Origin: Nanoarchaeota archaeon
Lineage (GTDB): Archaea; EX4484-52; LFW-46
Direction: 5' to 3'
DNA: 28,341 nucleotides
Assembly (NCBI GenBank): GCA_018897155.1
Contig: JAHILE010000019.1
Location: 1-28,341 of the forward strand
The notes under the pieces are model-generated. The model had not been told where the DNA came from and did no database searches. It saw nothing but the letters and a program-made list of their open reading frames with translations. Below, piece by piece: positions 3,274-28,341 of the stretch. Each line of letters opens with the position of its first letter. The first letter of the stretch is position 1. Both the position numbers and the translations under genes were made by a program.

Positions 3274-3302
3274 AAACATTTCAACTCTTCAAAATAAATA
3301 GT

Positions 3303-4058: not shown

Positions 4059-4110
4059 AACTAACATTATTCTAGAGACTATTTATTGATTGATATTGCC
4101 TAATTGCTAT

Positions 4111-4249: not shown

Positions 4250-4290
4250 AATTGCTATAAGATACTTAATGGATGCCCGATTCATTGAAT

Positions 4291-5061: not shown

Positions 5062-5157
5062 ATAAATATTTGCGAGAAAAAATATATAAATGCCTAATTA
5101 TTGATTACTATGATGTAATTACAAATAATTGCATTTAAACTGTAAACATCGCCCAAT

Positions 5158-5628
5158 TCATTTATTCTTTTTAAAAAACAGCCACGAATTTTTCGCGCCA
5201 TTAAATGCTGTTTTCAAAAGCACATATTTTCCTAAAAGTTTTTTTCCGTGGAAATCAGCGATTATTTCTTTGCCTGAAAATTTCTCCGGCATGTAAGTTC
5301 CGCAATCCCATATTTTGACAACGCCTGCGCCGTACTGCCCCTCAGGAATTGTGCCCTCAAACTTCGCATAATCAAGCGGATGATCTTCAACCTGAACCGC
5401 AAGGCGCTTTATCCTTTCCGCAAGCGGCGGCTCTTTAGGGACTGCCCAGCTTTTCAACACGCCGTCGTGCTCAAGGCGCAGGTCCCAGTGAAGGTGCGAT
5501 GCGTGGTGCTCGTGTATGGCAAAAATCAGGTCTTTGCCTGCTGATTTTATCGTTTCTAAAGGCAATGGCTCTGAAGTCTTTGTGAAGTCCCGCTTTTTAA
5601 CATATTCTTCAAGAGGCATACATATCAT
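5158..5628 (-). CDS. Stand-alone LigD-type DNA 3'-phosphoesterase
   Basis: The protein matches the PE domain of bacterial DNA ligase D, which removes 3'-phosphate and ribonucleotide ends during end-joining repair. Visible motifs are LEEYVKKRDFTKTSEP at the start, FAIHEHHASHLHWDLRLEHDG with the metal-binding histidines, WAVPKEPP, and VEDHPLDYAKFEG. The 156 aa cover one PE domain. No ligase or primase domain is attached and none lies nearby, as in other archaeal stand-alone PE proteins. Two starts are possible, ATG at 5628 or 5619; the second (MPLEEY) resembles relatives more. It is divergent from idi2 and shares the 62-bp spacer with it. Confidence 0.9.
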   Translation of the reverse strand: MICMPLEEYVKKRDFTKTSEPLPLETIKSAGKDLIFAIHEHHASHLHWDLRLEHDGVLKSWAVPKEPPLAERIKRLAVQVEDHPLDYAKFEGTIPEGQYGAGVVKIWDCGTYMPEKFSGKEIIADFHGKKLLGKYVLLKTAFNGAKNSWLFFKKNK

Positions 5629-5658
5629 TGTAAAACCTGCCTTAAAAAGCTCTTAAAA

Positions 5659-5670
5659 ACTATAAATAAA
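5659..5670 (+). promoter_or_regulatory. TATA box for idi2
   Basis: CTATAAATAAA is centred about 27 nt before the idi2 ATG at 5691. The spacer also holds the promoter of the divergent phosphoesterase gene, for which the same box read on the other strand lies 36 nt from the outer ATG. Confidence 0.55.
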
Positions 5671-5690
5671 CCGGCGCCAAATAGTATTGC

Positions 5691-6764: not shown

Positions 6765-6818
6765 ACCGCAATAAATCCATAAAATAGATATTTAAACACT
6801 ACTTACAAGTAATTCTAT

Positions 6819-7868
6819 ATGAACTTATTAAAAAAACCGCTCGTAACTCGGGGCTGGGATAAGGATATTCTGGCGAAATATGAGCTGGGAGATGTTCCGC
6901 TGGTTATGGGAAATATGACTAACCAATGCAACTACAACTGCATTTATTGCCATACTGATGCGGGCAAAAAAGACGAAAATGAATTAAATGCAGACGAATG
7001 GATTAGGATTCTTGATGAAAGCAAAGAACTTGGAAATGAAGTTTTCTGGATTGGGGGAAAAGGAGAACCGATTCTTGACAATGCGTTTAGAAAAGTAATC
7101 AGGCATGCAGATGATATAGGGCTAACTACGGTATTAAACACGAACGGAAGCCTGATTACGAAGAAAAGAGCGAAACTATTATATAATAACAATGTAAGCC
7201 CCGAAGTCAAAATAATCAGTTTTGACGAAGACGTGTATGATTATTTGTCAGGCACTATTGGAAATCTGCCCGCATTGCGCAAAGGGCTGAATAACTTGAT
7301 TAAAGCGGGCTATAGAAAAATAGTTGACGAAACAGATGATGCCCGAATAACCAGAATGTCCGGAATGCTGTTAATGGCAAAACCCGCTTATCAATCAATG
7401 CCTGATGTTTTCAGGTATTGTGACCGCAATAATTTCGCCCCGGTTGTCAGTGATGTTGTTGCTTCCGGAAGAGTTGTCAAGCGCGGAAATTTAGACGAAT
7501 TAAAGTTATCTGATGAAGAAAAAAAGAATATATGGGAACTCGGTTCTGAGATAATGAGTTATCCTTTGAACAAAGGAATAGAAGAGTGCCAGATACAATA
7601 CGGCATAGTTGTTCAAAACAATGGCGATCTTATCATTGATACTTATGGCATGTCGTGCGATGTCTGTGATTATTATGGGAGGCGGGTAGCGGGAAACCTG
7701 CGTGAAATATCGCTAAAAGAAGGATGGGAAATAATAAAAGAGGAAAGAAAAAGAAACGAGACTGCGCGCAAAATTGCGTATGATCAGTTTAAAGAAGAAT
7801 GTTCGGCTTGTCTTGCTTCGTGCCCGATGGCACACAAATCCCAAAAAGATTATTATGGCTTGAATTAA
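6819..7868 (+). CDS. Radical SAM enzyme with C-terminal cysteine-rich (SPASM-like) region
   Basis: The motif CNYNCIYC (Cys37, Cys41, Cys44) is the CxxxCxxC that binds the radical SAM 4Fe-4S cluster. FWIGGKGEPILD corresponds to the GGEP-like SAM-binding strand. The C-terminal part has two further cysteine groups, SCDVCDYYG near 276 and ECSACLASCP near 326, which suggest auxiliary clusters as in SPASM/Twitch maturases. The substrate is unknown and no precursor peptide gene is evident next to it. A TATA-like GATATTTAAA at 6788-6796 is centred 27 nt before the ATG. The stop overlaps the convergent flavodoxin-like gene by 4 nt. Confidence 0.85.
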   Translation: MNLLKKPLVTRGWDKDILAKYELGDVPLVMGNMTNQCNYNCIYCHTDAGKKDENELNADEWIRILDESKELGNEVFWIGGKGEPILDNAFRKVIRHADDIGLTTVLNTNGSLITKKRAKLLYNNNVSPEVKIISFDEDVYDYLSGTIGNLPALRKGLNNLIKAGYRKIVDETDDARITRMSGMLLMAKPAYQSMPDVFRYCDRNNFAPVVSDVVASGRVVKRGNLDELKLSDEEKKNIWELGSEIMSYPLNKGIEECQIQYGIVVQNNGDLIIDTYGMSCDVCDYYGRRVAGNLREISLKEGWEIIKEERKRNETARKIAYDQFKEECSACLASCPMAHKSQKDYYGLN

Positions 7869-8419: not shown

Positions 8420-9235
8420 ATGCAACACAATGCAAATCTCGCCGCGCTTGAAACAGAGCTCAAGCTCCGCGGATTTTCCCCGCGCACTGTAAAGACATAT
8501 CTTTTCTACAACAAAAAGTTTCTGGAATTCACAAAAAAAGAGCCAAAAGACGCAACAGAAGACGATATCAGAAAATACCTTGCTGGAAAAATGTCAAGCG
8601 GCGAAATTTCGACATCATCAATCGCCTTGATGAAAGCCGCGCTGAAATTTTTCTATGACGACCTGCTGAAAAAAGGCATTGTCAATATCAAGGCGCCTAA
8701 AATATCGAATAAACTGCCGGTTGTTCTGACGCGCGCGGAAATAAAACGGCTCATTGACTGCACAACAAACGAAAAACACAGGCTGATGCTGCTGCTTTTA
8801 TATTCCTCCGGACTTCGGCTTTCGGAATGCATAAACCTGAAATACGGCGACATCGACCTTGAAGATGGAATGGGTTGGGTGCGCTCGGGAAAAGGAAAAA
8901 AAGACAGGATGTTCATACTTTCAGAAAAGCTGCGCGATGCCCTCAAAAAAGAAGCGAAATCAAGCGACTATGTTTTCACTGGCAGGAACGGGCCGATTAA
9001 GGCGCGCGCAGTGCAAAAGCTTGTTGAAAACGCGGCAAAAAGAGCAAAGATTGACAAACCGGTGCATGTGCATACGCTGCGCCACACTTTCGCAACGCAT
9101 CTTCTTGAGAATGGAACGGATATAAGAAAAATACAAAAGCTTCTCGGACATTCAAACCTTCAGACAACGCAAATATATACTTCAGTCTCAACAGAAGAAT
9201 TGAAAAAAGTCAAAAGCCCCATGGATAATCTTTAA
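8420..9235 (+). CDS. xerA: Tyrosine recombinase XerA
   Basis: XerA is the archaeal chromosome-dimer-resolving tyrosine recombinase, acting at a dif site. The N-terminal SAM-like core-binding domain starts LKLRGFSPRTVKTYLFYNKKF. The catalytic domain shows SGLRLSE (first Arg), the Lys in SGKGKKDR, HTLRHTFATHL (His-x-x-Arg), LLGHSN (second His) and the nucleophile Tyr in TTQIYTSV. The length of 271 aa equals that of chromosomal XerA proteins and there is no extra phage-integrase N-terminal domain. It is divergent from the flavodoxin-like gene, with only 51 bp between the two ATGs. A tRNA gene lies 250 bp downstream, but I see no duplicated tRNA end. Confidence 0.95.
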   Translation: MQHNANLAALETELKLRGFSPRTVKTYLFYNKKFLEFTKKEPKDATEDDIRKYLAGKMSSGEISTSSIALMKAALKFFYDDLLKKGIVNIKAPKISNKLPVVLTRAEIKRLIDCTTNEKHRLMLLLLYSSGLRLSECINLKYGDIDLEDGMGWVRSGKGKKDRMFILSEKLRDALKKEAKSSDYVFTGRNGPIKARAVQKLVENAAKRAKIDKPVHVHTLRHTFATHLLENGTDIRKIQKLLGHSNLQTTQIYTSVSTEELKKVKSPMDNL

Positions 9236-10173: not shown

Positions 10174-11679
10174 ATGCAGGAACAAACATTGCTTCAAACA
10201 TTCTTAAATGAGCAAGCGGATAAAAACGCTTTTGTGGCCCACCAGATAGACTCATTCAACGATTTTGTATCCCGAAGGCTTCAGCGCACAATAAACGAAA
10301 TCGGAAAAGTCACAGTTGAATTGTCCTCAGGCGAATTCCTTGACATAAAATTCGGGACGGTAAATCTTGGAAAACCAATAATCCGCGAAGCAAACGGCTC
10401 GACAAGATCCATACTTCCGCAGGAAGCGCGTCTTCGAAACCTCACATACTCATCCCCGCTGCTTGTCGAAATGACTCCGGTATTTGAAGGCAAGGCACAG
10501 GAAACAGAAGTTGTTGAAATCGGAGAAATCCCGATAATGATCAAATCGGTCCTCTGCCCTCTCTCGACAATGAACAAAGGCGAGCTCGTTCTTGCAGGAG
10601 AAGACATAAAAGATCCGGGCGGATACTTCATAATCAATGGCACTGAAAGAGTCGTAGTTCTTCTTGAAGAAGTCGCCCCGAACAAACTCATATTGCAGAA
10701 AGATGGCGAAGAATTTTTCGCGCGCATCAACAGCGAACGCAGCGGATATGTCCAGCGCCATGTGTTTGAGAGAAAGAGCAACGGCGTAATTGTTGCAAAA
10801 TTCGCAAACATAGTTAATACGCCGATTCCGATAGTCGCGCTGATGAAAGCGCTTGGAATGGAAACCGATAAAGAAATAATAGAGAACATAATCACAGATA
10901 ATGAAAGCGAGCTTGAAGAAACATACACAAACATCTATGAAGTAGAGGCATGCACGCGCGATGAAGCAATCGATTACATCGGAAGGCGGATGAAAGTAAT
11001 GCAAAAAGAGCATAGGGAAACAAGAGTTCTTCAGCTTCTTGATACATACCTGCTCGGCCATATAGGGCAAAGAGTCGAAGACAGAAAGAAAAAAGCAAAA
11101 TTCCTTGCAATAATCATGAGAAAGCTCATCCATGTAAAACATGGAACGCTCACCGTTGATGACATAGACCACTATGCAAACAAGAGGCTCAAGGGTGTCG
11201 GCGATCTTTTCGAAGACCTTTTGCGCTCGATAATCCTTGGAAGGTGGGGGCTTGTCGCAAGATTACAGTACAATTATCAAAAAATGATGAAGCGCGGAAG
11301 AAAATTCCTGAAGCTTCAAGGTGTCGTTGTTTCAGACGTGCTCACAAAGCAAATCATGCGCTCAATGGCAACGGGAAACTGGATAACTGGAAAAACCGGC
11401 GTATCGCAAAGGCTTGAGCGAAGCAATTTCATAAGGACAACAGAGCATCTTCGAAGCGTTGTTTCAGCACTTTCATCAACGCAGGAGCATTTTGAAGCAA
11501 GAGAACTGCACGCAACTCATATGGGAAGGCTTTGTTGCATAAGGACTCCTGAAGGGCAGAACATAGGGCTTAGGAATTTCCTTGCAATGGGCGCTAAACT
11601 GACACAGCCCGCAACAGATGCAGATAACTTAAAAATACTCACAACAATCAAGGCACTTGGCGCAAAAACAGACGGTTAA
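10174..11679 (+). CDS. rpoB2: RNA polymerase subunit B'' (N-terminal half of the second largest subunit)
   Basis: This is the N-terminal half of the RpoB homologue, which is split in many euryarchaeal and DPANN genomes. It carries the protrusion and lobe domains and the start of the fork. Recognisable stretches are HQIDSFNDFV near the start, DPGGYFIINGTERV, TGKTGVSQRLERSN, and HATHMGRLCCIRTPEGQNIG near the end (fork region). The length (501 aa) is normal. It normally lies directly before rpoB'. Here three unrelated genes separate the two halves, although the strand and spacing still look operon-like. Confidence 0.96.
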   Translation: MQEQTLLQTFLNEQADKNAFVAHQIDSFNDFVSRRLQRTINEIGKVTVELSSGEFLDIKFGTVNLGKPIIREANGSTRSILPQEARLRNLTYSSPLLVEMTPVFEGKAQETEVVEIGEIPIMIKSVLCPLSTMNKGELVLAGEDIKDPGGYFIINGTERVVVLLEEVAPNKLILQKDGEEFFARINSERSGYVQRHVFERKSNGVIVAKFANIVNTPIPIVALMKALGMETDKEIIENIITDNESELEETYTNIYEVEACTRDEAIDYIGRRMKVMQKEHRETRVLQLLDTYLLGHIGQRVEDRKKKAKFLAIIMRKLIHVKHGTLTVDDIDHYANKRLKGVGDLFEDLLRSIILGRWGLVARLQYNYQKMMKRGRKFLKLQGVVVSDVLTKQIMRSMATGNWITGKTGVSQRLERSNFIRTTEHLRSVVSALSSTQEHFEARELHATHMGRLCCIRTPEGQNIGLRNFLAMGAKLTQPATDADNLKILTTIKALGAKTDG

Positions 11680-11696
11680 TTAAAGGGGGAGATAAA

Positions 11697-12035
11697 ATGT
11701 ATAAGGTAAACCTAGCAGAAGTTATGCTGGAAACAACGCACGGCGGACCAGGACATAAACGCGCGCTCGTGAATAAGGAGGACGTAAGAAACCCGCACCT
11801 GATGTTCATGAACGAGGTGTATGTTCCCCCAAAAAGCGTATTGAAACTACATGTTCATCCGGACCTTGAAGAAATACATTATTTTATACTTGGAACAGGA
11901 AAAATGCTTGTCGGAAACGAATACATCAAAGTCAAAAAAGGAGACAGAATAATAGTCCCGCCAAAAAGCAGCCATTGCGTCGTAAATGCGGGAAATTCAG
12001 TGATGAAATACATTTGTCTTGGAATAAAATTATAG
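11697..12035 (+). CDS. Single-domain cupin protein
   Basis: This is a small metal-binding beta-barrel protein of unknown substrate. HVHPDLEEIHYFILGTGK is cupin motif 1: His52, His54 and Glu58 or Glu59 are likely ligands, and YFILGTGKMLVGNE is the following strand turn. PPKSSHCVVNAGN is motif 2 with the last His. The start has a strong ribosome-binding site (GGGGGAGAT just before AAAATG) and lies 17 bp after rpoB''. Cupins of this size often act as isomerases, dioxygenases or sensors; nothing here decides. It is the first of three genes inserted between the rpoB halves. Confidence 0.85.
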   Translation: MYKVNLAEVMLETTHGGPGHKRALVNKEDVRNPHLMFMNEVYVPPKSVLKLHVHPDLEEIHYFILGTGKMLVGNEYIKVKKGDRIIVPPKSSHCVVNAGNSVMKYICLGIKL

Positions 12036-12045
12036 AGGCTTGGCA

Positions 12046-12650
12046 ATGAATAAAATACTGAAGTTTTGCGTTTTTTGGGCAGTTGAGCTCAAATATCAAT
12101 TCACAAAAACTGAAATTTGAGTGTGAATTTTAAAAAACGCAAAACTTGAATAAAATATTGCTTATAATCGATGTACAAAAATATTTTATTAATGATTTAA
12201 CAAAGGATTTACCTGAAAAAAATCAAAAAATATATTGAAGAAAACAAAAGTAAGTTCAGCAAAATAATATTTACGCAATTCATAAACAACGGAAAAAACA
12301 ATTTCGTAAAATTAATGGACTGGCACGAAATGTCAAAACCGCCGCAAAGCGACATCGTCGATGAGTTGGCGCAACTTGCAACAAAAGAAAACACAGTCGT
12401 AAAAAATAGCTATTCCGCTTTCAAAAACAAAGGATTCAGAAAAATTTTGAAAGATAATAAAATAGAAGAGATATGGATTGCGGGAATAAATACCGAACAG
12501 TGTGTTTTTACAACGGCAATCGAAGCATTTGACCTCGGCTATAAACCAGTCATAATTTCAGGCTTGTGCAGAAGCAGCGCAAATGCGGAATGGCACGCAA
12601 CTGCAATTAAAGTCATGGTTGATATGATTGGTGAAAAACAGGTTGTATAA
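12046..12650 (+). pseudogene. Isochorismatase/nicotinamidase-family hydrolase, doubly disrupted
   Basis: The parts of one cysteine hydrolase are spread over three frames. The start ATGAATAAAATA (12046) is cut by an 87-bp palindromic insertion, after which the coding sense resumes as NKILLIIDVQKYF (catalytic Asp) in another frame. A second shift occurs in the A7 run 12216-12222: removing one A joins DLPEK to KIKKYIEENKSKFSKIIF. The rest continues with VKNSYSAF (catalytic Lys region) and GINTEQCVFTTAIEAFDLGY (catalytic Cys). The C-terminal half could still be translated from the ATG at 12315, but would lack the catalytic Asp. The family hydrolyses amides or enol ethers such as nicotinamide; the substrate is unknown. 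Confidence 0.85.
12061..12147. mobile_element. 87-bp palindromic insertion element in the hydrolase gene
   Basis: The ends AAGTTTTGCGTTTTTT (12061-12076) and AAAAAACGCAAAACTT (12132-12147) are perfect 16-bp inverted repeats. Inner inverted repeats are CTCAAAT/ATTTGAG and AATTCACA/TGTGAATT. Flanking direct repeats are GAATAAAATACTG (12048-12060) and GAATAAAATATTG (12148-12160), 12/13 identical and exactly 100 bp apart. Deleting the element and one repeat restores the start MNKILLIIDV. It encodes nothing and its ends differ from the IS5-type MITE. Confidence 0.75.
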
Positions 12651-12708
12651 TGGCATTTATTGCAGTTTAGTGAAAAACAGGTTGTATAATGGCATTTATT
12701 GCAGTTTA
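12631..12708 (+). repeat. 39-bp perfect tandem duplication across the hydrolase/cutA junction
   Basis: The units 12631-12669 and 12670-12708 are identical. Each contains the end of the hydrolase (EKQVV and TAA), the overlapping start TAATGG and the first six codons of cutA. In the first unit that start reads into a stop after MAFIAV; in the second it opens cutA. Confidence 0.95.
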
Positions 12709-13006
12709 CATCGCAAATCCCGACAAAAAGACCGCGAAAATGGTTGCGGCGCATTTGCTTGAAAACGGGCTGGCAGCGTGCGTGAATATTTTTCCGGCCG
12801 AGAGTTCATATCGATGGAAAGGGAAAATCGAATGCGCAAAAGAGTTCGCCGCGCTTGCAAAAACAACGCAGGAAAATTTTGAAAAAATAAAGCAGGAAAT
12901 CAAAAAAATTCATCCTTATGAGTGCCCTGAAGTCATGAAAATCGTGGCTGAAGCAAACGAAGAATATGAAAATTGGGTAAAAAAAGAATGTATGAGTCAA
13001 AGCTGA
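12689..13006 (+). CDS. cutA: CutA1 family divalent-cation tolerance protein
   Basis: CutA1 proteins are small cytoplasmic trimers with a ferredoxin-like fold, linked to copper and other divalent metal tolerance; the exact role is unsettled. The family pattern is complete: FIAVYIANPDKKTAKMVAAHLLENGLAACVN, then the SSYRWKGKIE strand, ALAKTTQENFEKI, and HPYECPEVMKI near the end. The length of 105 aa is normal. The start is the second copy of a duplicated ATG. Its stop TGA lies inside the TGAT ribosome-binding core of rpoB', 6 nt before that start, so the two are probably translated in a coupled manner. Confidence 0.94.
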   Translation: MAFIAVYIANPDKKTAKMVAAHLLENGLAACVNIFPAESSYRWKGKIECAKEFAALAKTTQENFEKIKQEIKKIHPYECPEVMKIVAEANEEYENWVKKECMSQS

Positions 13007-13007
13007 T
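13003..13007 (+). promoter_or_regulatory. Ribosome-binding core deciding the rpoB' start
   Basis: CTGAT ends 4 nt before ATG 13012. The same core occurs before rpoA' (14805-14809), rpoA'' (17344-17348), rpl30e (18502-18506) and rps7 (19955-19959), at 3-4 nt. It is complementary to the AUCAC of the archaeal 16S rRNA end. In rpoB' and rpoA' it contains the stop codon of the gene before. Confidence 0.65.
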
Positions 13008-13011
13008 ATTT

Positions 13012-14808
13012 ATGAGCGACATATATCTTAACGGCCAACATGTTGGAGAAACAAAAGACGGAAAAGAGCTTGTCAAGTCATTAATTGCAAAGAGGCGGCA
13101 AGGCGTACTTCCGACTATAATGAATGCCTGCTACTACGAAGAAAAGGATGAAGCCCAGATAAACACTGACGGCGGCAGGACAAGAAGGCCTTTAATCATT
13201 GTTGAAAACGGAGCTTCAAAGCTAACTGAAGCCTTGATAACACAACTCAAGGAAGGAAAAATCACATGGCAAAACCTGATTGAAAAAGGAATTGTAGAAT
13301 ACATAGATGCTGAAGAAGAAGAAATGGCATATGTCACGTTTTATAGTAAAGATCTTACAAAAAAACATACACATATTGAAATAGATCCTATGATGATTGT
13401 GGGCGTCGGCGCTTCACTTCTTGTTTTCCCTGAAAAGAACAGAGGAGACAGATCAAACTACGGCTCAAGAATGGTCACGCAGGCAGTTGGAATGTATCTT
13501 CACAACCACATGCTTCGTGATGACACAACCGCGCAAACAATGGTCTATCCCCAGGAACCGCTGGTACAATCAGAAACAATACATGCGGCAGGCGTTGATA
13601 TTCACCCGGCAGGCCAGAACCTGATAATTGCGGTCATGCCGTTCTACGGATACAACATAGAAGATGCAATAGTCATAAACAAAGCATCAATCGAACGCGG
13701 CCTTGGCAGATCTTATTCTTTCAGAACATACGTTACAGAAGCCAATCGATATTGGGGTGGACAGGAAGATGAAATAGGATTCCCGGAAACCAGTGTGCGA
13801 GGCTACAAATCAGAAAAAGAATATAACAAACTAGATCCTGATGGAATTGTTTCACCCGAAACAAATGTTGAAGGAAGTGATGTTGTAGTCGGAAAGACAT
13901 CACCGCTAAGATTCCTGGGGGTGGCAAAGGAAACAAGGCTTGGGATAAAAAACAGGAGAGACAATTCACTTGTTGTAAATGCTGCAGAAGGCGGCGTTGT
14001 TGACAAAGTAATAATGACTGAATCCAAGGAAGGAAACCGCCTTATCAAAGTCACTGTAAGAGAGCTTAAAATTCCTGAAATCGGAGATAAATTCGCTTCA
14101 AGACACGGGCAAAAAGGCGTCCTTGGAATAATAGTTCCAGAAGAAGACATGCCATTTACAGCAGACGGAATAACTCCGGATATAATTTTCAACGCCCACG
14201 CAATACCTTCAAGAATGACAATAGGACATTTGCTTGAAATAATCGGCGGAAAGGCAGGCGCGCTAGCAGGTGAAAAAATCAACGGAACTGCATTCAAGGG
14301 TGATGAGGATTACATAACAAAACTTCTCAAAGCCACAGGAATGAGAGACGATGGAAAAGAAACGCTTTACAACGGAATAACCGGAGAAAAAATCGAAGTG
14401 CAGATACTTACAGGCATAATTTACTACCAAAGGCTTTACCACCTAGTATCACAGAAGATGCACGCGCGTTCCAAAGGCCCGGTTGCACTGCTCACAAAAC
14501 AGCCGACTGAAGGGCGTTCAAAAGAAGGCGGCCTAAGATTCGGAGAGATGGAAAAAGACACGCTTGTCGCGCACGGAGCAGCAATAACGCTGAAAGAAAG
14601 ATTCAGTTCAGACCGCTCGACAATACCGTTCTGCGAAACATGCGGAATAACAGCAGTTATCGACAAGATTAAGAATAAAACATTCTGCCCGCTCTGCAAA
14701 GGATCAAAAATTAAGAATGTTGAGATGTCTTACGCATTCAAGCTCCTCCTTGATGAAATGAAGAGCATGATGATTTACCCGCAGATTGTTATGGAGGACG
14801 AGGAGTGA
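13012..14808 (+). CDS. rpoB1: RNA polymerase subunit B' (C-terminal half of the second largest subunit)
   Basis: This is the C-terminal half of the RpoB homologue, with the hybrid-binding and wall domains and the clamp-anchoring end. Diagnostic stretches are GYNIEDAIVINKASIERG, GDKFASRHGQKGVLG (active-site lysine region), and HARSKGPVALLTKQPTEGRS near the end. A C-terminal zinc ribbon reads CETCGITAVIDKIKNKTFC PLC. An in-frame ATG lies upstream at 12973 inside cutA, but 13012 fits the family start (DIYLNGQHVGET) and has the TGAT core. The length of 598 aa is normal. The stop overlaps the ribosome-binding core of rpoA'. Confidence 0.96.
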   Translation: MSDIYLNGQHVGETKDGKELVKSLIAKRRQGVLPTIMNACYYEEKDEAQINTDGGRTRRPLIIVENGASKLTEALITQLKEGKITWQNLIEKGIVEYIDAEEEEMAYVTFYSKDLTKKHTHIEIDPMMIVGVGASLLVFPEKNRGDRSNYGSRMVTQAVGMYLHNHMLRDDTTAQTMVYPQEPLVQSETIHAAGVDIHPAGQNLIIAVMPFYGYNIEDAIVINKASIERGLGRSYSFRTYVTEANRYWGGQEDEIGFPETSVRGYKSEKEYNKLDPDGIVSPETNVEGSDVVVGKTSPLRFLGVAKETRLGIKNRRDNSLVVNAAEGGVVDKVIMTESKEGNRLIKVTVRELKIPEIGDKFASRHGQKGVLGIIVPEEDMPFTADGITPDIIFNAHAIPSRMTIGHLLEIIGGKAGALAGEKINGTAFKGDEDYITKLLKATGMRDDGKETLYNGITGEKIEVQILTGIIYYQRLYHLVSQKMHARSKGPVALLTKQPTEGRSKEGGLRFGEMEKDTLVAHGAAITLKERFSSDRSTIPFCETCGITAVIDKIKNKTFCPLCKGSKIKNVEMSYAFKLLLDEMKSMMIYPQIVMEDEE

Positions 14809-20600: not shown

Positions 20601-21068
20601 ATGCTCAGGTTTCGAAACAGAAAAAAGGCAATTGTCACAGCAGATATGGCTGTTGCACTGGTAATTTTTGTTCTGATGCTGTCTATCGCATTCTATTATC
20701 TTTCATATTTATCAAAGCCCAAACAGCCTTTTGAGGCTACGCTCAAGGCTGAAGGAGCGCTAATTGGCGAAAAACTTGTGGGCAATACAACCTGGACGGT
20801 TTACAAGCTGCCTGTATGGGTTGAATCAACAGTCACAGGAAACGCAAGCTTTGAGCTGTTCTTCTATCCGGATCCTTACATAGATCTCAATTCTATTGCA
20901 ATGCAAGATGAAAATTCGACCGAAATTCCGTCCTCTTTCTTAGACAATCATATTGTATGGATAAGCAATGTCACTCTAGGAAAGAGCCTTTTCTATCTGA
21001 CGTATCTTAAAAGCAGCGGGTTGGATGCAACGATTTATGATACTGGGCTTTTAAGCTCTGAACAGTAA
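20601..21068 (+). CDS. Membrane-anchored pilin-like extracellular protein
   Basis: The family is not recognised with certainty. The start MLRFRNRKKAIVTADMAVAL is a short basic stretch followed by one hydrophobic helix (about residues 15-37), as in archaeal type IV pilin-like proteins. The remainder, about 115 residues, is predicted to be outside the cell and has several N-x-S/T sites. A TATA-like AACTATTTATC (20568-20578) lies about 28 nt before the ATG, so the gene is likely transcribed apart from the ribosomal operon. It ends 6 bp from the stop codon of the first surface-protein tail copy on the other strand. Confidence 0.65.
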   Translation: MLRFRNRKKAIVTADMAVALVIFVLMLSIAFYYLSYLSKPKQPFEATLKAEGALIGEKLVGNTTWTVYKLPVWVESTVTGNASFELFFYPDPYIDLNSIAMQDENSTEIPSSFLDNHIVWISNVTLGKSLFYLTYLKSSGLDATIYDTGLLSSEQ

Positions 21069-21073
21069 AATAC

Positions 21074-21253
21074 TTAAGCCCATGTCCAGTTAGCCGCTGA
21101 GCCCCTTGGAATTATCCAGCCCGCGCCGCTGTTGTTGAATGTTGTCCAGGTCCAGTTTACTTCGTTTCCTAATCTGATTTTATCTCCGGTGTACGGCAGT
21201 TGCCATACCCAGTTGCTGTTTGATGCCGCTGTTGAAACCATTGTCGGCGTTCC
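21074..21253 (-). pseudogene. Tail copy A: detached 3' end of the beta-helix surface gene
   Basis: The last 180 bp of the surface protein gene are repeated without a start. Read on the minus strand it encodes VGTPTMVSTAASNSNWVWQL through IIPRGSAANWTWA and TAA. Positions 21116-21253 are identical over 138 nt to 25429-25566. The final 42 nt differ from the intact gene but match tail copies B and C closely. It lies 21 bp after the stop of the ATPase gene, on the same strand. Confidence 0.92.
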
Positions 21254-21274
21254 GACTGCTAACTGATAAATGAT

Positions 21275-22558
21275 TTATTCCAAAAGCCATTTCCAAAGAG
21301 GGGTGTAACTGATTTTCTTATCATTTATTTTTTCCTCGCTTTCCACATCCTCAGTTATTATAAGCCCCTCTTTTAGCTTAAAGGCGTCCATAGCCTCCAT
21401 TAATCCATTAATTTCACGATCCTTGTTTTCCTTTATTTGATATGAAACTTGTATTGCTTGCATAACCTTTTGTCCGTTCTTTATCAAAAAATCGCATTCT
21501 CCTTTATTTTTATAATAATATATTTCTTTTCCGCTTTTAACTAATGAAAGAAACACTGTATTTTCATACAACTTTCCAATATTCTCGCTAAACCTGAAAC
21601 CGGCAATGTTTATCAATCCGGAATCAATACAATATACTGCTCTCGGATTTACTTCCTGCTCTTTTAGCGAGTATGAAAATTTTGGAACAAAAAATACAAG
21701 ATACGCTTCTGCCATGCAAGCAGAAAATCGCTCTACACTATCCGCGCTTACGCCCAAAAACCCTGCAATCTTTCTATATGAAGCGGCTGACGAAAAATTT
21801 GTCAAATAATATCTGGCAAGCGCTTTTAGTTTTTCTGTTTTTCTTATCTTGTGCCGCATGGCCACGTCCCGTTCCACAATGTCGTCGAAATATCTTCGAA
21901 GTATTTCTTCCTTTTCCTCTTTTAGCGCCGCTAAAGGAAATCCGCCGAATTCTAGATATTCGCGAAGTAGCTGTTTTATTCGGGTTTTTTGGGAGAGCAT
22001 ATCCAGCTTATTTTCTATTTTCACTTGGTTGAATAACAGGAATTCACGAAAACTCAGAGGATACGCCTTTATTTCCACCCATCTGCCGGTAATGAGTGTG
22101 CCCAGTTCCTTGCTAAGCAGCTTTGAAGTCGAGCCGGAAATAAAAATATTTGCTTCTTTTTTTTCGTGCAAACCCCTGACAAATCGTTCCCATTTCGGGA
22201 CATTTTGCACTTCATCCAAAAAAATCCAAGGCTTGCCTTTCGGCTTTATTATTTCCATATACGAGTCATAAATCTGCTGCAGAAATTCAAGGGAAAGAAT
22301 GCCCGAGAATTTCGGCTCTTCAAAATTTACATATAAAAAAGATGATTTGTCGGCACCCTCCGACATCTTTCTTTTAATGAATTGCTTCATCAAAGTAGAT
22401 TTTCCGCTTCTTCGAACACCTGTTATGGCTACAATCTGCTCTGTGCGCGCCATGCGGCCGATATTATCAAGATATGTTTTTCGTTCTATACCTGTCTCTT
22501 GCTCTCTTCTCCAGAAATTCCAGCTGCTCAGTATTTCTATTATTTCTTCGTTGTTCAT
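21275..22558 (-). CDS. AAA-family ATPase with DUF4143-like C-terminal domain
   Basis: Walker A is ITGVRRSGKSTLM (near residue 47) and Walker B is WIFLDEVQNVPKWE. The sensor region is ANIFISGSTSKLLSKEL and the domain closes with GRWVEIKAYPLSFREF. These are typical of the AAA_14/DUF4143 ATPases common in archaeal accessory islands. The C-terminal half (about 200-427) has a winged-helix part and a nuclease-like fold with GECDFLIK, in the place where restriction-endonuclease-like acidic residues are found. The function is unproven; a role in mobile elements or toxin-antitoxin-like systems is often proposed. A TATA-like box (22581-22588) lies 26 nt upstream. Confidence 0.88.
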   Translation of the reverse strand: MNNEEIIEILSSWNFWRREQETGIERKTYLDNIGRMARTEQIVAITGVRRSGKSTLMKQFIKRKMSEGADKSSFLYVNFEEPKFSGILSLEFLQQIYDSYMEIIKPKGKPWIFLDEVQNVPKWERFVRGLHEKKEANIFISGSTSKLLSKELGTLITGRWVEIKAYPLSFREFLLFNQVKIENKLDMLSQKTRIKQLLREYLEFGGFPLAALKEEKEEILRRYFDDIVERDVAMRHKIRKTEKLKALARYYLTNFSSAASYRKIAGFLGVSADSVERFSACMAEAYLVFFVPKFSYSLKEQEVNPRAVYCIDSGLINIAGFRFSENIGKLYENTVFLSLVKSGKEIYYYKNKGECDFLIKNGQKVMQAIQVSYQIKENKDREINGLMEAMDAFKLKEGLIITEDVESEEKINDKKISYTPLWKWLLE

Positions 22559-22580
22559 GGCATACTATTGTGCTTTTACA

Positions 22581-22588
22581 CATATAAA
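22581..22588 (-). promoter_or_regulatory. TATA box of the ATPase gene
   Basis: The minus-strand TTTATATG is centred about 26 nt before the ATG at 22558. It lies between tail copy B and the gene, so the module carries its own promoter. Confidence 0.55.
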
Positions 22589-22640
22589 CTTATCGGTCAC
22601 TTTATGCACATATTGAACGATACTATCAATCACTATTCAT

Positions 22641-22752
22641 TTAAGCCCATGTCCAGTTAGCCGCAGAGCCTCGTGGAATTATCCAGCCCGCGCCGCTGTT
22701 GTTGAATGTTGTCCACTGCTAGTTTAATTCGTTTCCTAATCTGATTTTTATC
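22641..22752 (-). pseudogene. Tail copy B: short, decayed 3' end of the surface gene
   Basis: The copy has 112 bp with an in-frame TAG in place of the WTW stretch and one extra T near 22748. It encodes the remainder of RLGNE...WTTFNNSGAGW and IIPRGSAANWTWA with TAA. The 33-nt core (22683-22715) is unchanged. It lies 9 bp after the HEPN stop and is the most degraded copy, so it is probably the oldest. Confidence 0.88.
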
Positions 22753-22760
22753 ACAATCAA

Positions 22761-23273
22761 TTATTCTTCCATAATTCTTTTAGACACACCCAAAATTCTT
22801 TTAGCAGAATCTAGCAATTCTTCATAAGTCTTATCTTCCATCGAAAGTTTTGTTCCGTATTGGTGCTGTTCTCTTATACTTATGATTGTTTCTTTTTCCG
22901 TTTGTTTTTCCGAATCTGCGCTTGCTATTTTTTTCAATAAAACCGTATCAAAACTTATTTTCCCTTCCTCTGCCAAATTCGAAATTAATGCAAATGTGCA
23001 TTCTTGGTTTCCGGATTCATAGCCAAATTTCATAAGTATTGCTAAAAGTGAATGATACATCGCATAAAATGCTGCGGGTCCGCACCAATCAGGAAATTCA
23101 CTATTTTTCAGATAAATCATTAATTTCAGATTATGTTCAGCTTTTGCTATATGGTCCCTCGCTTTTACACTATTTGGAGTGATTTTAACTAATCCCCTGT
23201 GTTTCGTTCCTTCTTTCAATTCTCTTTCGGCTTTTTTCAAGCACCAGTCAACCTTATTTTTTGAATAGCTCAT
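22761..23273 (-). CDS. HEPN-domain protein (partner of nucleotidyltransferase)
   Basis: HEPN proteins are small all-helical proteins, often ribonuclease toxins paired with MNT-type nucleotidyltransferases. Typical helices are DHIAKAEHNLKLMIYL, then WCGPAAFYAMYHSLLAILMKFG, and a final SIREQHQYGTKL that stands where the HEPN Arg-containing motif is expected. It overlaps the upstream nucleotidyltransferase gene by 4 nt (ATGA), so the two are co-translated. The length of 170 aa fits. It is similar in layout to the second pair at 24218-25349 but the sequences have diverged widely. Confidence 0.82.
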   Translation of the reverse strand: MSYSKNKVDWCLKKAERELKEGTKHRGLVKITPNSVKARDHIAKAEHNLKLMIYLKNSEFPDWCGPAAFYAMYHSLLAILMKFGYESGNQECTFALISNLAEEGKISFDTVLLKKIASADSEKQTEKETIISIREQHQYGTKLSMEDKTYEELLDSAKRILGVSKRIMEE

Positions 23274-23848
23274 TTAACCAACTCAATTAATTTTTCTTCC
23301 CCAAATGCGATAATTCCCTTCAATGCATTTAACACAACAGCGTCTCTTCTCAATATATTCTCTTCCAAATCTTTCGAGGACTGGAAAATAGCATGCATCT
23401 CTTTTTCATTTATTTGGTTCAAATCTTTGATTTCTTCATTCAACTTTTCAAACCTATCCTGGCTGGTTACAATCAACACGTCAACATCATCTGCTTTGCC
23501 TTCCTTTTTTAAAACAGAGCCAAAAATTAGAACAATATCCGCATTTTTTATTTTTCTGACTTCAGTAATCCAGCGCTTAACATACGGCGAGCTATGTTCG
23601 GCTTCCCTTTTGAGAACAAACATTAGGTAATCTTTTGCATAATCATTACGGAAATTGATCCTGTAGAATGTTGCCTTACCAGCGACTTTTGCAGCCAATA
23701 TGTTTTCTTTCTCAAGCCGTTTCAATATCTTTAAGGCACCCATCGGCGTGATATTCAGTTCCTTGGATATGCTAGTAGCGTTAAATTCCTTTTCCGGACT
23801 CTTAAATATCCTTAATACGCTAAGCATCTCGTTTCTTGTAATGTCCAT
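23270..23848 (-). CDS. HTH-fused MNT-type nucleotidyltransferase
   Basis: Residues 1-75 form a winged helix-turn-helix (ATSISKELNITPMGALKILKRLEKE). Residues 100-140 contain the minimal nucleotidyltransferase signature IFGSVLKKEGKADDVDVLIV, with GS and DxD. MNT proteins act as antitoxins by modifying or blocking the HEPN partner. The N-terminal DNA-binding domain suggests that it represses its own promoter. That promoter contains a perfect 18-bp palindrome 15 nt before the ATG. Confidence 0.85.
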   Translation of the reverse strand: MDITRNEMLSVLRIFKSPEKEFNATSISKELNITPMGALKILKRLEKENILAAKVAGKATFYRINFRNDYAKDYLMFVLKREAEHSSPYVKRWITEVRKIKNADIVLIFGSVLKKEGKADDVDVLIVTSQDRFEKLNEEIKDLNQINEKEMHAIFQSSKDLEENILRRDAVVLNALKGIIAFGEEKLIELVK

Positions 23849-23862
23849 TTATATCAACTCAT

Positions 23863-23880
23863 AGTTTATATATATAAACT
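23863..23880 (-). promoter_or_regulatory. TATA box embedded in an 18-bp palindrome (likely operator)
   Basis: AGTTTATATATATAAACT is perfectly self-complementary and is centred 23-24 nt before the ATG of the HTH-nucleotidyltransferase gene. A repressor bound here would cover the TATA box. Confidence 0.6.
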
Positions 23881-23954
23881 GTAAGTATATGAAGGTTTGC
23901 GTTGGCAAAATTGCCTTTACGACATTGACACGGCTTTACTCGACACTAATTCCT

Positions 23955-24177
23955 CTACGCCCACGTCCAGTTAGCCGCAGAGCCTCGTGGAATTATCCAG
24001 CCCGCGCCGCTGTTGTTGAATGTTGTCCAGGTCCAGTTTACTTCGTTTCCTAATCTGATTTTATCTCCGGTGTACGGCAGTTGCCATACCCAGTTGCTGT
24101 TTGACGCCATGGTAGAAACCATTGTCGGAGTTCCTACAGATATTTCTGTGCTGCCGTTCAGGGCGATTGTAAACGAC
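23955..24177 (-). pseudogene. Tail copy C: 223-bp 3' end of the surface gene
   Basis: This is the longest tail copy, collinear with 25387-25609 and without indels. It encodes SFTIALNGSTEISVGTPTMV to IIPRGSAANWTWA and TAG. The reading frame stays open upstream to an ATG at 24221, which overlaps the HEPN stop as ATGA, so an 88-residue fusion beginning MKTGNAILIAAYRQ could be made. The junction is flanked by a small hairpin, TTGCCG/CGGCAA (24180-24196). I consider it a detached gene end, not a normal gene. Confidence 0.9.
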
Positions 24178-24217
24178 AGTTGCCGATATGCGGCAATTAA
24201 TATTGCATTGCCGGTTT

Positions 24218-24775
24218 TCATTGCAGATTGATGATTTCTTTAACTTTATTTACAAACGTCTCGGCATATTTCTTTGCTTCTTCAGCAAGCATAATCTCAA
24301 ATCCCCGAGAAACCCCGTAATTTGCTCTTTCTCTCAATGCTTTTGTCCGTACAAACGATTCTATATCTTCCTCTCCAAGGCACTTGCCCAACAGCGCCAC
24401 ATCGTTTTTTGTCAAATTCATTGATTTATGGTAGTAGTAATATATAACGGCACATAAAGTTGCTGAATGTGATTTTGAAGAAACGCCCAATTTGGCCAAA
24501 AGAGCCATTGCCGCATGATATATCGAATAGTAAAAGGCGGATATCGCCCAGTCATAGAAATTCTCTTCTTTGCCGAATATTTTCGGAATTTCATCATTAT
24601 GCTTGTCTATCAGCCAATTAGAGAAAGACAGATTGTGCTCCGCTTTTTTAATAAAGTCTTTTGGCGTTCTGGTCTCTGCTCTAAGCGCACGCTTTCTTGA
24701 ATATTCGTCCAGCCATTCCTTGCAGGCCATCTCATCAGTTATCCAAATCTGCCAATCAGGCGCTTTATTTTTCAT
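24218..24775 (-). CDS. HEPN-domain protein
   Basis: This protein is predicted to be an all-helical HEPN-family toxin-like partner. Helices DFIKKAEHNLSFSNWLID and DWAISAFYYSIYHAAMALLAKLG match the family, and LRERANYGVSRGFE near residue 150 occupies the place of the Arg-containing motif; I see no clear RxxxxH. Its N-terminus (WITDEMACKEWLDEYSRKRA) is longer than in the paralogue at 22761. It overlaps the nucleotidyltransferase gene by 11 nt, and is followed within 41 bp by tail copy C. The length is 185 aa. Confidence 0.82.
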   Translation of the reverse strand: MKNKAPDWQIWITDEMACKEWLDEYSRKRALRAETRTPKDFIKKAEHNLSFSNWLIDKHNDEIPKIFGKEENFYDWAISAFYYSIYHAAMALLAKLGVSSKSHSATLCAVIYYYYHKSMNLTKNDVALLGKCLGEEDIESFVRTKALRERANYGVSRGFEIMLAEEAKKYAETFVNKVKEIINLQ

Positions 24776-25349
24776 TTTCCAACAACACCCACCATTCTAT
24801 TCCTTGAACGATTATCCGGTTTTGCTTTAATTCCTGCATAAAACTGTCTGTTTCATTGAAGAGTTTTTGCCTGAATTCGCTAAATGTCATGTATACGGGA
24901 GAAATTTCAGTTCCCTGCTTATATTTAACAAGCTTGATTTTACTTTCGATGTCTTCCCTATCAACAGTGTTAAATACCAAAAACAAATCAACATCGCTTT
25001 TGTCAGTATATGTTCCTTTTGCATAAGAACCGAAAAGAATCGTCAACAAGGGTTTGTTTGACAGTTGTCTTATGAATTCAAAAATGGAATTTCCGACCTT
25101 TGCCGGCAGTCCATTTAGCCTCGCATATTCAACTGCATAAATGTTCGGAATTATGGTATTGCTTCCATAATTCAGATATAGTTTGACATTTCTGCCTTCT
25201 TTTTTCTTGTAAATCAGCTTTTCTTTTTCCAGCGACTTTATATGATGCGCCATAGTGGGCATTCCGGCTTTTAATGCCCTTGAAAGTTCTCTGATATGGC
25301 TGCCAGGATTTCTATAAATTAATCCGATGAGCTTTGTCCGTGTTTTCAT
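24765..25349 (-). CDS. HTH-fused MNT-type nucleotidyltransferase
   Basis: The N-terminal winged helix (residues 1-60, HIRELSRALKAGMPTMAHHI) resembles ArsR-type regulators. The signature ILFGSYAKGTYTDKSDVDLF at about residues 104-123 is the GSxxxG...SDxDL active site of minimal nucleotidyltransferases. It is probably the antitoxin and autoregulator of the HEPN partner. The start at 25349 lies only 38 bp from the stop of the surface protein gene. A TATA box and a 12-bp palindrome fill that gap, so nothing else separates the two genes. Confidence 0.87.
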   Translation of the reverse strand: MKTRTKLIGLIYRNPGSHIRELSRALKAGMPTMAHHIKSLEKEKLIYKKKEGRNVKLYLNYGSNTIIPNIYAVEYARLNGLPAKVGNSIFEFIRQLSNKPLLTILFGSYAKGTYTDKSDVDLFLVFNTVDREDIESKIKLVKYKQGTEISPVYMTFSEFRQKLFNETDSFMQELKQNRIIVQGIEWWVLLENEK

Positions 25350-25363
25350 AGATATACTTATTG

Positions 25364-25381
25364 TATCATATGATATATAAA
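25364..25381 (-). promoter_or_regulatory. Promoter and palindromic operator of the first HTH-MNT/HEPN pair
   Basis: The minus-strand TTTATATA (25374-25381) is 28 nt before the ATG. The perfect palindrome TATCATATGATA (25364-25375) lies between it and the expected transcript start, a typical repressor position. Confidence 0.6.
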
Positions 25382-25386
25382 GTTTT

Positions 25387-25609
25387 CTACGCCCACGTCC
25401 AATTTGTCGCCGAGCCTCTCGGGATTGTCCAGCCCGCGCCGCTGTTGTTGAATGTTGTCCAGGTCCAGTTTACTTCGTTTCCTAATCTGATTTTATCTCC
25501 GGTGTACGGCAGTTGCCATACCCAGTTGCTGTTTGATGCCGCTGTTGAAACCATTGTCGGCGTTCCTACAGATATTTCTGTGCTGCCGTTCAGGGCGATT
25601 GTAAACGAC
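25387..25609 (-). repeat. Tail copy D: the intact gene's own 3' end, source of copies A-C
   Basis: This 223-bp end recurs at 23955-24177, 22641-22752 and 21074-21253. The 33-nt core at 25429-25461 is identical in all four. The last 40 nt of this copy (VTIPRGSATNWTWA-type end) differ from the other three, which agree with one another (IIPRGSAANWTWA). Confidence 0.95.
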
Positions 25610-28341
25610 TGCAGGTTTCCATTTGCGTCGGCTGTTAATGTGTATGGATTTTCCTGTGTGCCGGCTGACGTATTGTACACATAGTATGTTGTGCCCGGCA
25701 GCATTCCGGTGATGTTATAACGCGCAGTCAATCCCGCAGTGCCGTTTGTATCATTCCAGCGCATAACAATTGTGTTCCAGTTGACAAGGGTGCGGTTGAG
25801 CGAGCCTGCGGCAGAAACATTTGTCTTGAGCCAAATGTTCTGCGAGCTGTCGTTTCTGTAGTTGAACCATGAAGTGGCGTCATTGAAGTAAATCTGTCTT
25901 TTTGCGGTGAAGTTTGTGCCGGTGAAGTTGTTGATATTAGATGCAGAATCAAGGTCAAGATAATAGTCATAGCTCGCCTTTGCGATTATCGAGCCGCCTG
26001 TGATGTTGTTCAATGCGGATGAATAAATATAGACGCCGTACGCCGATGTGTTTGTTGTTAAGATGGTGTTGTTCGCGAGGGTATTTGTGCCGGACGAGGA
26101 GAGCACAACGCCGTATCCGTCTGAGCCCGAGGTTGAAATGGTGTTGTTCGCGAGGGTATTTGTGCCGGACGAGGAGAGCCAGACGCCGTATCCCCATGAG
26201 CCCGAGGTCGAGATGGTGTTGTTCGCGAGGGTGTTTGAACTGCTGGATAATCTGAGCCAGACGCCGTATCCGTATGAGCCCGAGGTCGAGATGGTGTTGT
26301 TCGAAAGGGTGTTTGAATTGCTGGACGAGTAGAGATAGACGCCGTATCCGCTTCCGTCTTTTATACTTATAGTGTTATTCGTTATATTACTATTTATCAT
26401 CCCTGAAGTATATATACCGTGGTTTGTTGTCCCATCTGCAGTTGCATTATCCTGAACAATATTCAGGTTCTTTATCGTAATATTATCCCAGCCGCCTGTG
26501 TTATTTATCCCATAACCATTGCCAATTTGCGAATAATTAATCGTATATCCTGCGCCGTCAAGGGTGACGTTATTCTCCTTGATTGTAAAACACGTCGAAT
26601 CTGCAGAAACATTTCCGACCAGATTATACGCCTCAGGAAGGTCTAAGTCGCCGCACGACGTTAAGTTGAGCGCCTGAACCTGTATTTGCGTGTTGCCGTT
26701 AAGTGCGATTGTGAATGACGGCAGAACTCCGCTTGCATCAGTGTCCTGCAGGTATGCTCTTGTCCTTATGCTGCCCGTAGTGTTGTAGATTGCGTATGTT
26801 GTGTTTGCCAAAAGGCCGGTCAGATTATACGTCGCAGTCAAAGCTACTGAAGGCGTTTCGTTCCATTTCATTGTGCTGTTGGACCATGTCGTAAGAGTCC
26901 TGGTATATGTACTACTTGCTGAAGATGTCTTTGCCTTTAGCCAAATATTTCCGTTGGTCTCGTTGTTGTAGTTGAACCATGAAGTTGTGTCATAAAATGA
27001 AATATATCCCGGCACAGTAAAATTGGTATTTGTAAAGTTATTTGTCGTGCTTGCATTTCTCAGATAATAACTGAGTGCTGTGCCTTCGGAAATGGAGTTG
27101 TTGTTCGATGACCGAACATAAATATCATCCGTCCCACCAGAGATCAAAATGTTGCCTTTTATCTGATTTGTGTTACTCAATAACAGCGTTATTCCGTACG
27201 CAGTGCCTGAAGAATATATTGTATTGTTTGTTATGTTATTCAAGTTTGAGGAGTCCACATAGATACCATCCTCGCCTAAGCCTAATGTAGTTATTGTGTT
27301 ATTTATCAGCGTGTTTGAATTGCTTGATAAATTGACATATATGCCGGCACTTGCGCCAGCGAATGAATCTGTTGTTATGTTGTTATTTGACAATATGTTC
27401 GAGCTGCTGGAGTTCAGTACGATACCATAGTCATAATATCCCATAAGAACACGCAGACTGTTATTGGCTATGCTGTTTGAGTTGCTTGATGCCGTTAAAT
27501 ATATGCCCCTGCTATTGTCTCCCCGTGTAACAATAGAATTGTTCTTTATGGTTGCGTTCGTTACACCTCTTAGATAAACCGCATGAGCATCGGTAATCGC
27601 ATCATCACTATGAACAATATTGAGATTCATTATCGTAAGATTGTCATATCCCAATGAATCATTTATTGCATACCCCGACACTGATTGAGAATAGTTTATC
27701 CAATATCCAGCTCCGTCCAAAGTGACGTTGTCCGCCTTGATTGTGAAGCACGTCGCATCAGCAGAAACATTTCCAACAAGATTATACGTCTCCGGAAGGT
27801 CCAAATCGCCGCACGACGTCAGGTTGAGCGCCTGAACCTGTATTTGCGTGTTGCCGTTAAGTGCGATTGTGAATGACGGCAGAACTCCGCTTGCATCAGT
27901 GTCCTGCAGGTATGCTCTTGTCCTTATGCTGCCGGTGGTGTTGTAGATTGCGTAAGTCTTTGACGGCAGAAGTCCTGTGAGGTTATACGTCGCAGTCAGC
28001 GCTGCCGAAGGCGTTTCGTTCCATTTCAATGTATTGTTAGACCATGTGGCGAGGGTGCGGTTCAGGGAGCCTGCGGCGGAAAGTTTGTTCTTAAGCCAGA
28101 CGTTTCCGGTATTGTTATTATAGTTGAACCATGTTGATGTATCCTGGAAGTAAATCTGCCTCTTTGCGGTGAAGTTTGTGCCGGTGAAATTGTTGGTATT
28201 GGATGCAGAATCAAGATCAAGATAATAATCATAACTTTTCTGTGCGATTATCGAGCCGCCTGTGATGTTGTTCAATGCGGATGAATAAATATAGACGCCG
28301 TACGCCGATGTGTTTGTTGTTAAGATGGTGTTGTTCGCGAG
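25387..28341 (-). CDS. Giant beta-helix surface protein, 5' end beyond the window
   Basis: The frame is open from the right edge to the TAG at 25387, so at least 984 residues are present and the start is missing. The apparent start near 28275 is only an internal TTG codon. The protein is built of modules of about 386 residues. Each has NosD/PbH1-type parallel beta-helix turns rich in N-N-T-I, then a beta-sandwich-like block (WFNYNN, NIWLK, TAxYNLTGLL) that closes with SFTIALNG. Next comes LTSCGDLDLP, followed by the next module. N-x-S/T sites are very frequent, as expected for a glycosylated extracellular protein. The end is rich in tryptophan (NWTWTTFNNSGAGW, NWTWA). No membrane anchor is seen. 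Confidence 0.9.
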   Translation of the reverse strand, partial: LANNTILTTNTSAYGVYIYSSALNNITGGSIIAQKSYDYYLDLDSASNTNNFTGTNFTAKRQIYFQDTSTWFNYNNNTGNVWLKNKLSAAGSLNRTLATWSNNTLKWNETPSAALTATYNLTGLLPSKTYAIYNTTGSIRTRAYLQDTDASGVLPSFTIALNGNTQIQVQALNLTSCGDLDLPETYNLVGNVSADATCFTIKADNVTLDGAGYWINYSQSVSGYAINDSLGYDNLTIMNLNIVHSDDAITDAHAVYLRGVTNATIKNNSIVTRGDNSRGIYLTASSNSNSIANNSLRVLMGYYDYGIVLNSSSSNILSNNNITTDSFAGASAGIYVNLSSNSNTLINNTITTLGLGEDGIYVDSSNLNNITNNTIYSSGTAYGITLLLSNTNQIKGNILISGGTDDIYVRSSNNNSISEGTALSYYLRNASTTNNFTNTNFTVPGYISFYDTTSWFNYNNETNGNIWLKAKTSSASSTYTRTLTTWSNSTMKWNETPSVALTATYNLTGLLANTTYAIYNTTGSIRTRAYLQDTDASGVLPSFTIALNGNTQIQVQALNLTSCGDLDLPEAYNLVGNVSADSTCFTIKENNVTLDGAGYTINYSQIGNGYGINNTGGWDNITIKNLNIVQDNATADGTTNHGIYTSGMINSNITNNTISIKDGSGYGVYLYSSSNSNTLSNNTISTSGSYGYGVWLRLSSSSNTLANNTISTSGSWGYGVWLSSSGTNTLANNTISTSGSDGYGVVLSSSGTNTLANNTILTTNTSAYGVYIYSSALNNITGGSIIAKASYDYYLDLDSASNINNFTGTNFTAKRQIYFNDATSWFNYRNDSSQNIWLKTNVSAAGSLNRTLVNWNTIVMRWNDTNGTAGLTARYNITGMLPGTTYYVYNTSAGTQENPYTLTADANGNLQSFTIALNGSTEISVGTPTMVSTAASNSNWVWQLPYTGDKIRLGNEVNWTWTTFNNSGAGWTIPRGSATNWTWA
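26063..26365 (-). repeat. Tandem 75-78-bp repeats encoding beta-helix turns
   Basis: Four units begin at 26063, 26138, 26213 and 26291. Each encodes one 25-26-residue turn, such as NTLANNTISTSGSDGYGV. The first units are almost identical at the DNA level, so slippage or recombination could change their number without breaking the frame. Confidence 0.9.
26665..26775 (-). repeat. 111-nt exact internal repeat of the surface gene
   Basis: This stretch is identical to 27823-27933, at an offset of 1,158 bp, which equals 386 codons. It encodes the SFTIALNGNTQIQVQALN region of two successive modules. Confidence 0.85.
28243..28341 (-). repeat. 99-nt exact repeat at the right edge of the window
   Basis: This stretch is identical to 25981-26079, with a mismatch immediately before it. 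The window stops inside the repeat, as expected when an assembly breaks at a repeated module. Confidence 0.85.

Follow-up and report, generated by a model that had tools for sequence, protein, structure and literature searches.

Copied gene ends bracket toxin–antitoxin-like and defence-like modules in an archaeal array and at many unrelated genes

A regenerated gene end with a displaced copy of it left beyond the insert is the usual footprint of site-specific integrative elements. Insertion with long target duplication, as seen with restriction-modification units, is said by papers that cite them to have been described by Nobusato (2000) and Furuta (2010). According to two sources (PMC3874152; PMC3031569), such units insert with long and variable duplications of the target (~100 bp) and without other mobile elements. 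In the effector–immunity arrays of the Vibrio cholerae type VI secretion system (T6SS), as PMC5361080 describes them, immunity genes stand together with displaced 3' ends of effector genes. Here we analyse an array in the window, the 28,341-nucleotide (nt) stretch that makes up the entire contig C19 (JAHILE010000019.1) of a 1.43-Mb genome of a Nanoarchaeota archaeon, in which three toxin–antitoxin-like or defence-like modules lie beside the 3' end of a surface gene and each is followed by a further copy of that end. With a probability of roughly 0.55, we read the array as three addiction/defence modules, each added beside the host gene end by recombination anchored in that end and without a site-specific integrase. 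Bearing on this are brackets of the same kind at many unrelated genes, their enrichment around the cargo families, two empty sites, coding-constrained divergence between copies and mosaic blocks of identity within them.

On the minus strand the array runs from surface gene end D through an MNT/HEPN pair, copy C, a second MNT/HEPN pair and copy B to an AAA_14/DUF4143 ATPase and copy A, an order and a set of cargo types that the initial annotation had given and that the copy coordinates and Pfam bear out. Its features are listed below, with the TATA-like boxes judged by eye from the spacer sequence.

25387..28341, minus strand: large secreted parallel beta-helix (NosD-like) surface gene, the host of the array, running off the contig end (open reading frame (ORF) list, Pfam PF05048/PF13229, NCBIfam beta-helix repeat)
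25387..25609, minus strand: gene end D, the functional 3' end of the surface gene (copy comparison)
25373..25381, minus strand: TATA-like box (TTTATATAT) ahead of module 1
24765..25349, minus strand: winged helix-turn-helix (wHTH)-MNT nucleotidyltransferase of module 1 (PF01909, GSX10DXD motif, PADLOC PDC-M05A 2.4e-20)
24218..24775, minus strand: HEPN protein of module 1, without the RX4-6H motif (PF05168 3.3e-07)
23955..24177, minus strand: displaced copy C, 94% identical to D over 223 nt, open in frame (copy comparison)
23865..23878, minus strand: TATA-like box ahead of module 2
23270..23848, minus strand: wHTH-MNT protein of module 2 (PF01909, PADLOC PDC-M05A 4.4e-12)
22761..23273, minus strand: HEPN protein of module 2, without the RX4-6H motif (PF05168 1.7e-07)
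22641..22748, minus strand: displaced copy B, 86% identical over 107 nt, truncated on its 5' side, with a frameshift and an in-frame stop (copy comparison)
22580..22588, minus strand: TATA-like box ahead of the ATPase
21275..22558, minus strand: AAA_14 + DUF4143 ATPase (Pfam; PADLOC PDC-S01 1.9e-121)
21074..21256, minus strand: displaced copy A, 94% identical to D over 182 nt, open in frame (copy comparison)
20601..21068, plus strand: truncated gene for a pilin-like secreted protein, at the far edge of the array (homologue lengths)

As first noted for the tails, copies D, C, B and A all end exactly at the surface gene's stop codon (TAG in two, TAA in two), and the DNA beyond it is unrelated. 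A 33-nt core is exact in all four, at 21116, 22683, 23997 and 25429, against 0.00 occurrences expected in 100 shuffles. Spacers measure 37, 106 and 82 nt ahead of the modules and 40, 12 and 18 nt after them, close to the 38–107 and 9–41 bp estimated earlier. The cargo of different window modules is only 20–27% alike, and the units were therefore not simply duplicated; relatives of the module 2 HEPN protein in other archaea are at most 69% identical and lie beside unrelated genes. At the far edge, the pilin-like gene encodes 155 amino acids (aa), its homologues in 15 other genomes are nearly all open frames of ~375–444 aa, and the C-terminal half of the protein is found on contig C55 (22410–23207), joined to a different N-terminal domain. 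With small promoter-bearing toxin–antitoxin cassettes in one orientation and repeats between them, the array resembles those of integrons; unlike in integrons, the repeats are host-gene coding sequence and differ from locus to locus, and no integrase gene adjoins the array.

Gene ends proved to be recurrent insertion points for toxin–antitoxin-like and defence-like cargo, with a regenerated end and a displaced copy, as the initial annotation had proposed for the surface gene, but its dedicated cassette system with a core of its own for that gene was not borne out. No recombination core is shared, because the host gene differs at each of the other loci. A search for the 33-nt core, predicted to lie between accessory genes in relatives, returned nothing, and outside the window the surface-gene tail had no match in its own phylum (34 genomes, one order), in 84,980 GTDB genomes or in IMG/VR, leaving only the four window copies.

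The same anatomy was found at other genes when the regions surrounding the remaining HEPN genes in this genome and in a sister genome (G001) were each compared with themselves. In this genome, a phosphoglucomutase gene is accompanied by an MNT/HEPN pair and a 124-nt tail (88% identical), a major facilitator superfamily (MFS) transporter gene by an MNT/HEPN pair and a 107-nt tail (78%), and a pentapeptide gene by AbiEi/AbiEii and a 77-nt tail. Gene starts are copied as well: that of a surface gene, that of a glycosyltransferase gene (with AbiE), and that of a polysaccharide flippase gene, whose first 100–360 nt occur in at least 10 copies on contigs C4 (L101), C5 (L120), C37 (L107) and C39 (L102:1–150), with MNT/HEPN, a PIN-type gene pair and DUF234 ATPases between them. 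Three of these four contigs begin inside a copy, and the flippase copies probably form one large array that broke the assembly. Tails of the isoleucyl-tRNA synthetase gene and of a membrane-protein gene bracket modules in the sister genome. Further host genes, in other genomes, encode a class-II D/K/N tRNA synthetase (a 37-nt tail, 100% identical and ending at the stop codon), leucyl-tRNA synthetase (LeuRS; 94% over 35 nt), an AFOR/HUMPS fusion, a hexapeptide transferase and a radical-SAM protein; in other lineages they are a surface gene (126 nt, with the module in opposite orientation), ComM (443 nt) and AlaX (35 nt). Although the genomes examined are mostly metagenome assemblies, an assembly error is unlikely, because the anatomy recurs within single contigs of several genomes and the copies differ.

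Bracketing direct repeats were more frequent around the cargo families than expected from shifted positions, a simple null. They enclosed 8 of the 24 HEPN modules in the own and sister genomes (2.6 expected, P 3e-4), and in the own phylum 13 of 39 DUF4143 ATPases (1.9 expected), three of these 13 in one tandem ATPase array, and 3 of 11 AbiEii genes (0.9 expected). When GTDB contigs were searched with the HEPN family of the window, the wHTH-MNT alignment being too diverse for this use, 31 loci came up from several archaeal lineages and some bacteria, one of them the sister contig C32, and seven of 29 GTDB loci had bracketing repeats (1.4 expected). The tandem ATPase array (L272, G033 C9, 3350–9450) comprises five DUF4143 ATPase genes and was seen in one genome. 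One locus of the collection (L177) lies on a contig filed as Ignavibacteria (JAUSIA010000491) that carries an archaeal-type MNT/HEPN module and a surface gene, possibly through a binning error.

Two sets of repeats were set aside as ordinary. Those considered as brackets in L102 on C39 are the PEF-CTERM-like sorting tails of paralogues; by eye, several secreted proteins with near-identical tails of this type are encoded there (2862–6916), near an archaeosortase-like membrane protein. Those in L097 on C43 are the N-termini of paralogous enzymes, where two glycosidase-like genes have a common 249-nt start (10459–10707 and 12359–12607), 95% identical, with the rest diverged, as if 5' ends had been exchanged. 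ARAGORN called no tRNA in a 28-nt tRNA-like repeat of L179.

The initial annotation had suggested looking for empty sites, and at two of the other loci these were found. In the sister genome the gene order phosphoglucomutase–gene–MFS transporter is kept without either MNT/HEPN module or either tail; modules therefore come or go while the order stays.

Recurrence at housekeeping genes decides against two readings of the window array. It had been proposed as an alternative that the tails are what is left of tandem paralogues of the host gene, their bodies deleted and toxin–antitoxin genes having landed between them. Beta-helix paralogues do exist, on contigs C11, C23 and C30, but they have different C-termini and lack the tail, and the same anatomy at tRNA synthetases and at single-copy genes such as that for phosphoglucomutase makes such remnants very unlikely. 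Scarcely credible, too, is the idea that the copies are silent donor cassettes from which the surface gene draws antigenic variants, although the mosaic identity among D, C and A would suit it: the copies encode nearly the same peptide, as the predominance of third-position differences over all loci indicates (see below), and housekeeping genes have the same structure. We rejected both.

A block of ~109 nt is the same (100% identity) in copies D, C and A, which diverge on both sides of it. In the 5' flank, A is like D and C differs; in the 3' flank, A, B and C are alike and D differs. Such runs of identity are improbable under random placement of differences (P ~0.001 or less), and blocks too long for chance were found in the pairs D/C, D/A and C/A as well as in the phosphoglucomutase, L112, flippase and ComM copies, which points to recombination. 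These mosaic blocks within gene ends are consistent with one-sided homology inside the host gene, as in homology-facilitated illegitimate recombination. In the last 42 nt, array neighbours are the most similar (three differences between A and B, three between B and C, eight between C and D and 11 between A and D), as successive displacement predicts. Pooled over all pairs, 346 of the 510 differences between gene ends and their copies (436 + 74) fall on third codon positions (68%), a pool that is not fully independent since some pairs share a reference copy; single pairs are also significant. Both copies of a pair therefore evolved as working gene ends, and most simply, as judged from their sequences, they would have done so in separate lineages and come together only afterwards.

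This third-position bias argues against plain target duplication and for recombination with the DNA of a relative. Under the former, a transposition-like or repair-associated insertion would duplicate 30–450 bp of the gene end, and later allelic exchange of the working end would produce the differences. There is much that is alike: addiction-type operons, no linked recombinase, empty sites in relatives and long variable direct repeats of the target, the brackets here ranging from 28 to 443 nt and differing at each locus. Long, variable duplications of ~100 bp are reported for restriction-modification units that move unaided by other mobile elements (PMC3874152; PMC3031569), and the tails of the D/K/N-class synthetase and LeuRS genes (100% over 37 nt and 94% over 35) also speak for duplication. 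Neutral decay of a dead tail, however, would scatter over codon positions, and a random event would not end copies at the stop codon, as happens in the window and at several other loci; where copies mostly stop there, it is the inner boundary that varies (28 to 443 nt). Our loci also depart from the described cases in their cargo (MNT/HEPN, AbiE and PIN-type pairs and DUF4143/DUF234 ATPases rather than restriction-modification genes), in repeats that are gene ends, in the accrual of arrays, in their archaeal setting and in the coding-constrained divergence of the copies. We regard plain target duplication as rather unlikely.

If tyrosine recombinases had inserted the modules site-specifically at gene ends, the modules being cis-mobilisable leftovers whose integrase was lost or is borrowed, the array would belong with the accretion of integrative and conjugative elements (ICEs) and cis-mobilisable elements (CIMEs) and with phage-type 3'-end integration. 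Regenerated ends, displaced copies left behind and tandem accretion fit that footprint, and about eight genes for tyrosine recombinases are present in the genome. On the other hand, at least 12 different host genes are used, 5' ends included, without a common att core, and no recombinase is found among the ORFs of the window array or those read in other bracketed units; the integrase gene of the window (8420–9235) is 12 kb away and looks, in our judgement, like a XerA-type housekeeping enzyme. We consider such integration improbable; by the tests made, the array is not a site-specific element and is probably no integron.

Homology-facilitated arrays, such as those of the V. cholerae T6SS and the orphan modules of Rhs genes, share with our loci the conserved anchor in the host gene, the module beside the working gene and the old 3' ends pushed down the array. 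They differ in that the V. cholerae cargo is the immunity partner of the replaced effector, whereas here cargo and host gene are unrelated and any gene may be host. In the way it works, the present case combines traits of insertion with long target duplication and of homology-facilitated arrays, standing outside the former by its cargo and by copies that are not identical. A literature search that missed most subscription papers found no published account of gene-end copies around MNT/HEPN or DUF4143 modules.

In the recombination anchored in gene ends that we favour, incoming DNA from a related lineage would bring a module preceded by that lineage's version of the gene end, and a crossover in the shared end would connect host gene and module. 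Closure on the far side might come about by illegitimate joining inside the recipient's gene, given one-sided homology, or through a single crossover that integrates a circle holding the end and the module; either way one intact gene end would be kept and a second copy left beyond the module. Illegitimate joining is suggested because inner boundaries vary and the far edge of the array abuts the truncated 155-aa gene. The bracketing copies could then let the host recombinase, presumably RadA, excise the module as a loop or insert it in another strain, and addiction, if it operates in this organism, would account for the persistence of such unstable duplications. The recurrence at many unrelated genes and in several genomes suggests that ordinary DNA recombination, rather than a dedicated enzyme, spreads the cassettes. 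More tentatively, as a possibility we would not put high, the modules may be recombinase-free mobile units whose copy of the host gene end serves as homology arm and restores the gene upon insertion, and which move between strains through the host's homologous recombination and accrue as arrays at many different genes.

Several observations weigh against this account. At the sites differing between phosphoglucomutase and MFS gene ends and their tails, the nucleotide in the sister genome is that of the gene end in 22 cases and that of the tail in 11, the reverse of what simple displacement of the native end predicts, so that polarity there leans towards the gene end as the native copy; the opposite assignment, drawn from the amino-acid pattern, finds no support in this count. 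Copy A, expected to be the oldest, is less decayed than B, and the bracketing repeats in L117, L174, L186 and L192 are no clear gene ends. The tyrosine recombinases mentioned above could include an enzyme acting in trans. Finally, both window pairs match PF01909 and PF05168 and have the MNT motif GSX10DXD, and the absence of RX4-6H from both HEPN proteins leaves toxin activity uncertain; the label 'toxin' for these proteins would follow from family membership and operon structure.

Elsewhere in the window, RNA polymerase subunit B is split (10174–14808) into B'' (10174–11679) and B' (12973–14808), with cupin-, isochorismatase- and CutA-like small ORFs recognised by eye between them, and two adjoining transposase ORFs (1216–2184; DDE_Tnp_1_5 and DDE_Tnp_1) are apparently one transposase in two frames.

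The question of how toxin–antitoxin and defence modules that lack transposases travel is open, and gene-end brackets offer a concrete and testable route. Among defence-like systems of prokaryotes, DUF4143 ATPases (PDC-S01) are reported to rank fourth in frequency, and for PDC-M05 (MNT/HEPN) an enrichment in archaea is reported (PMC12988326). Of the modules examined here, about a quarter to a third lie between direct repeats, and many of these repeats are clearly copied from the end of the adjoining gene. Such copies account for integron-like arrays that have no integrase, and duplicated gene ends can serve as a signature in scanning for new modules.

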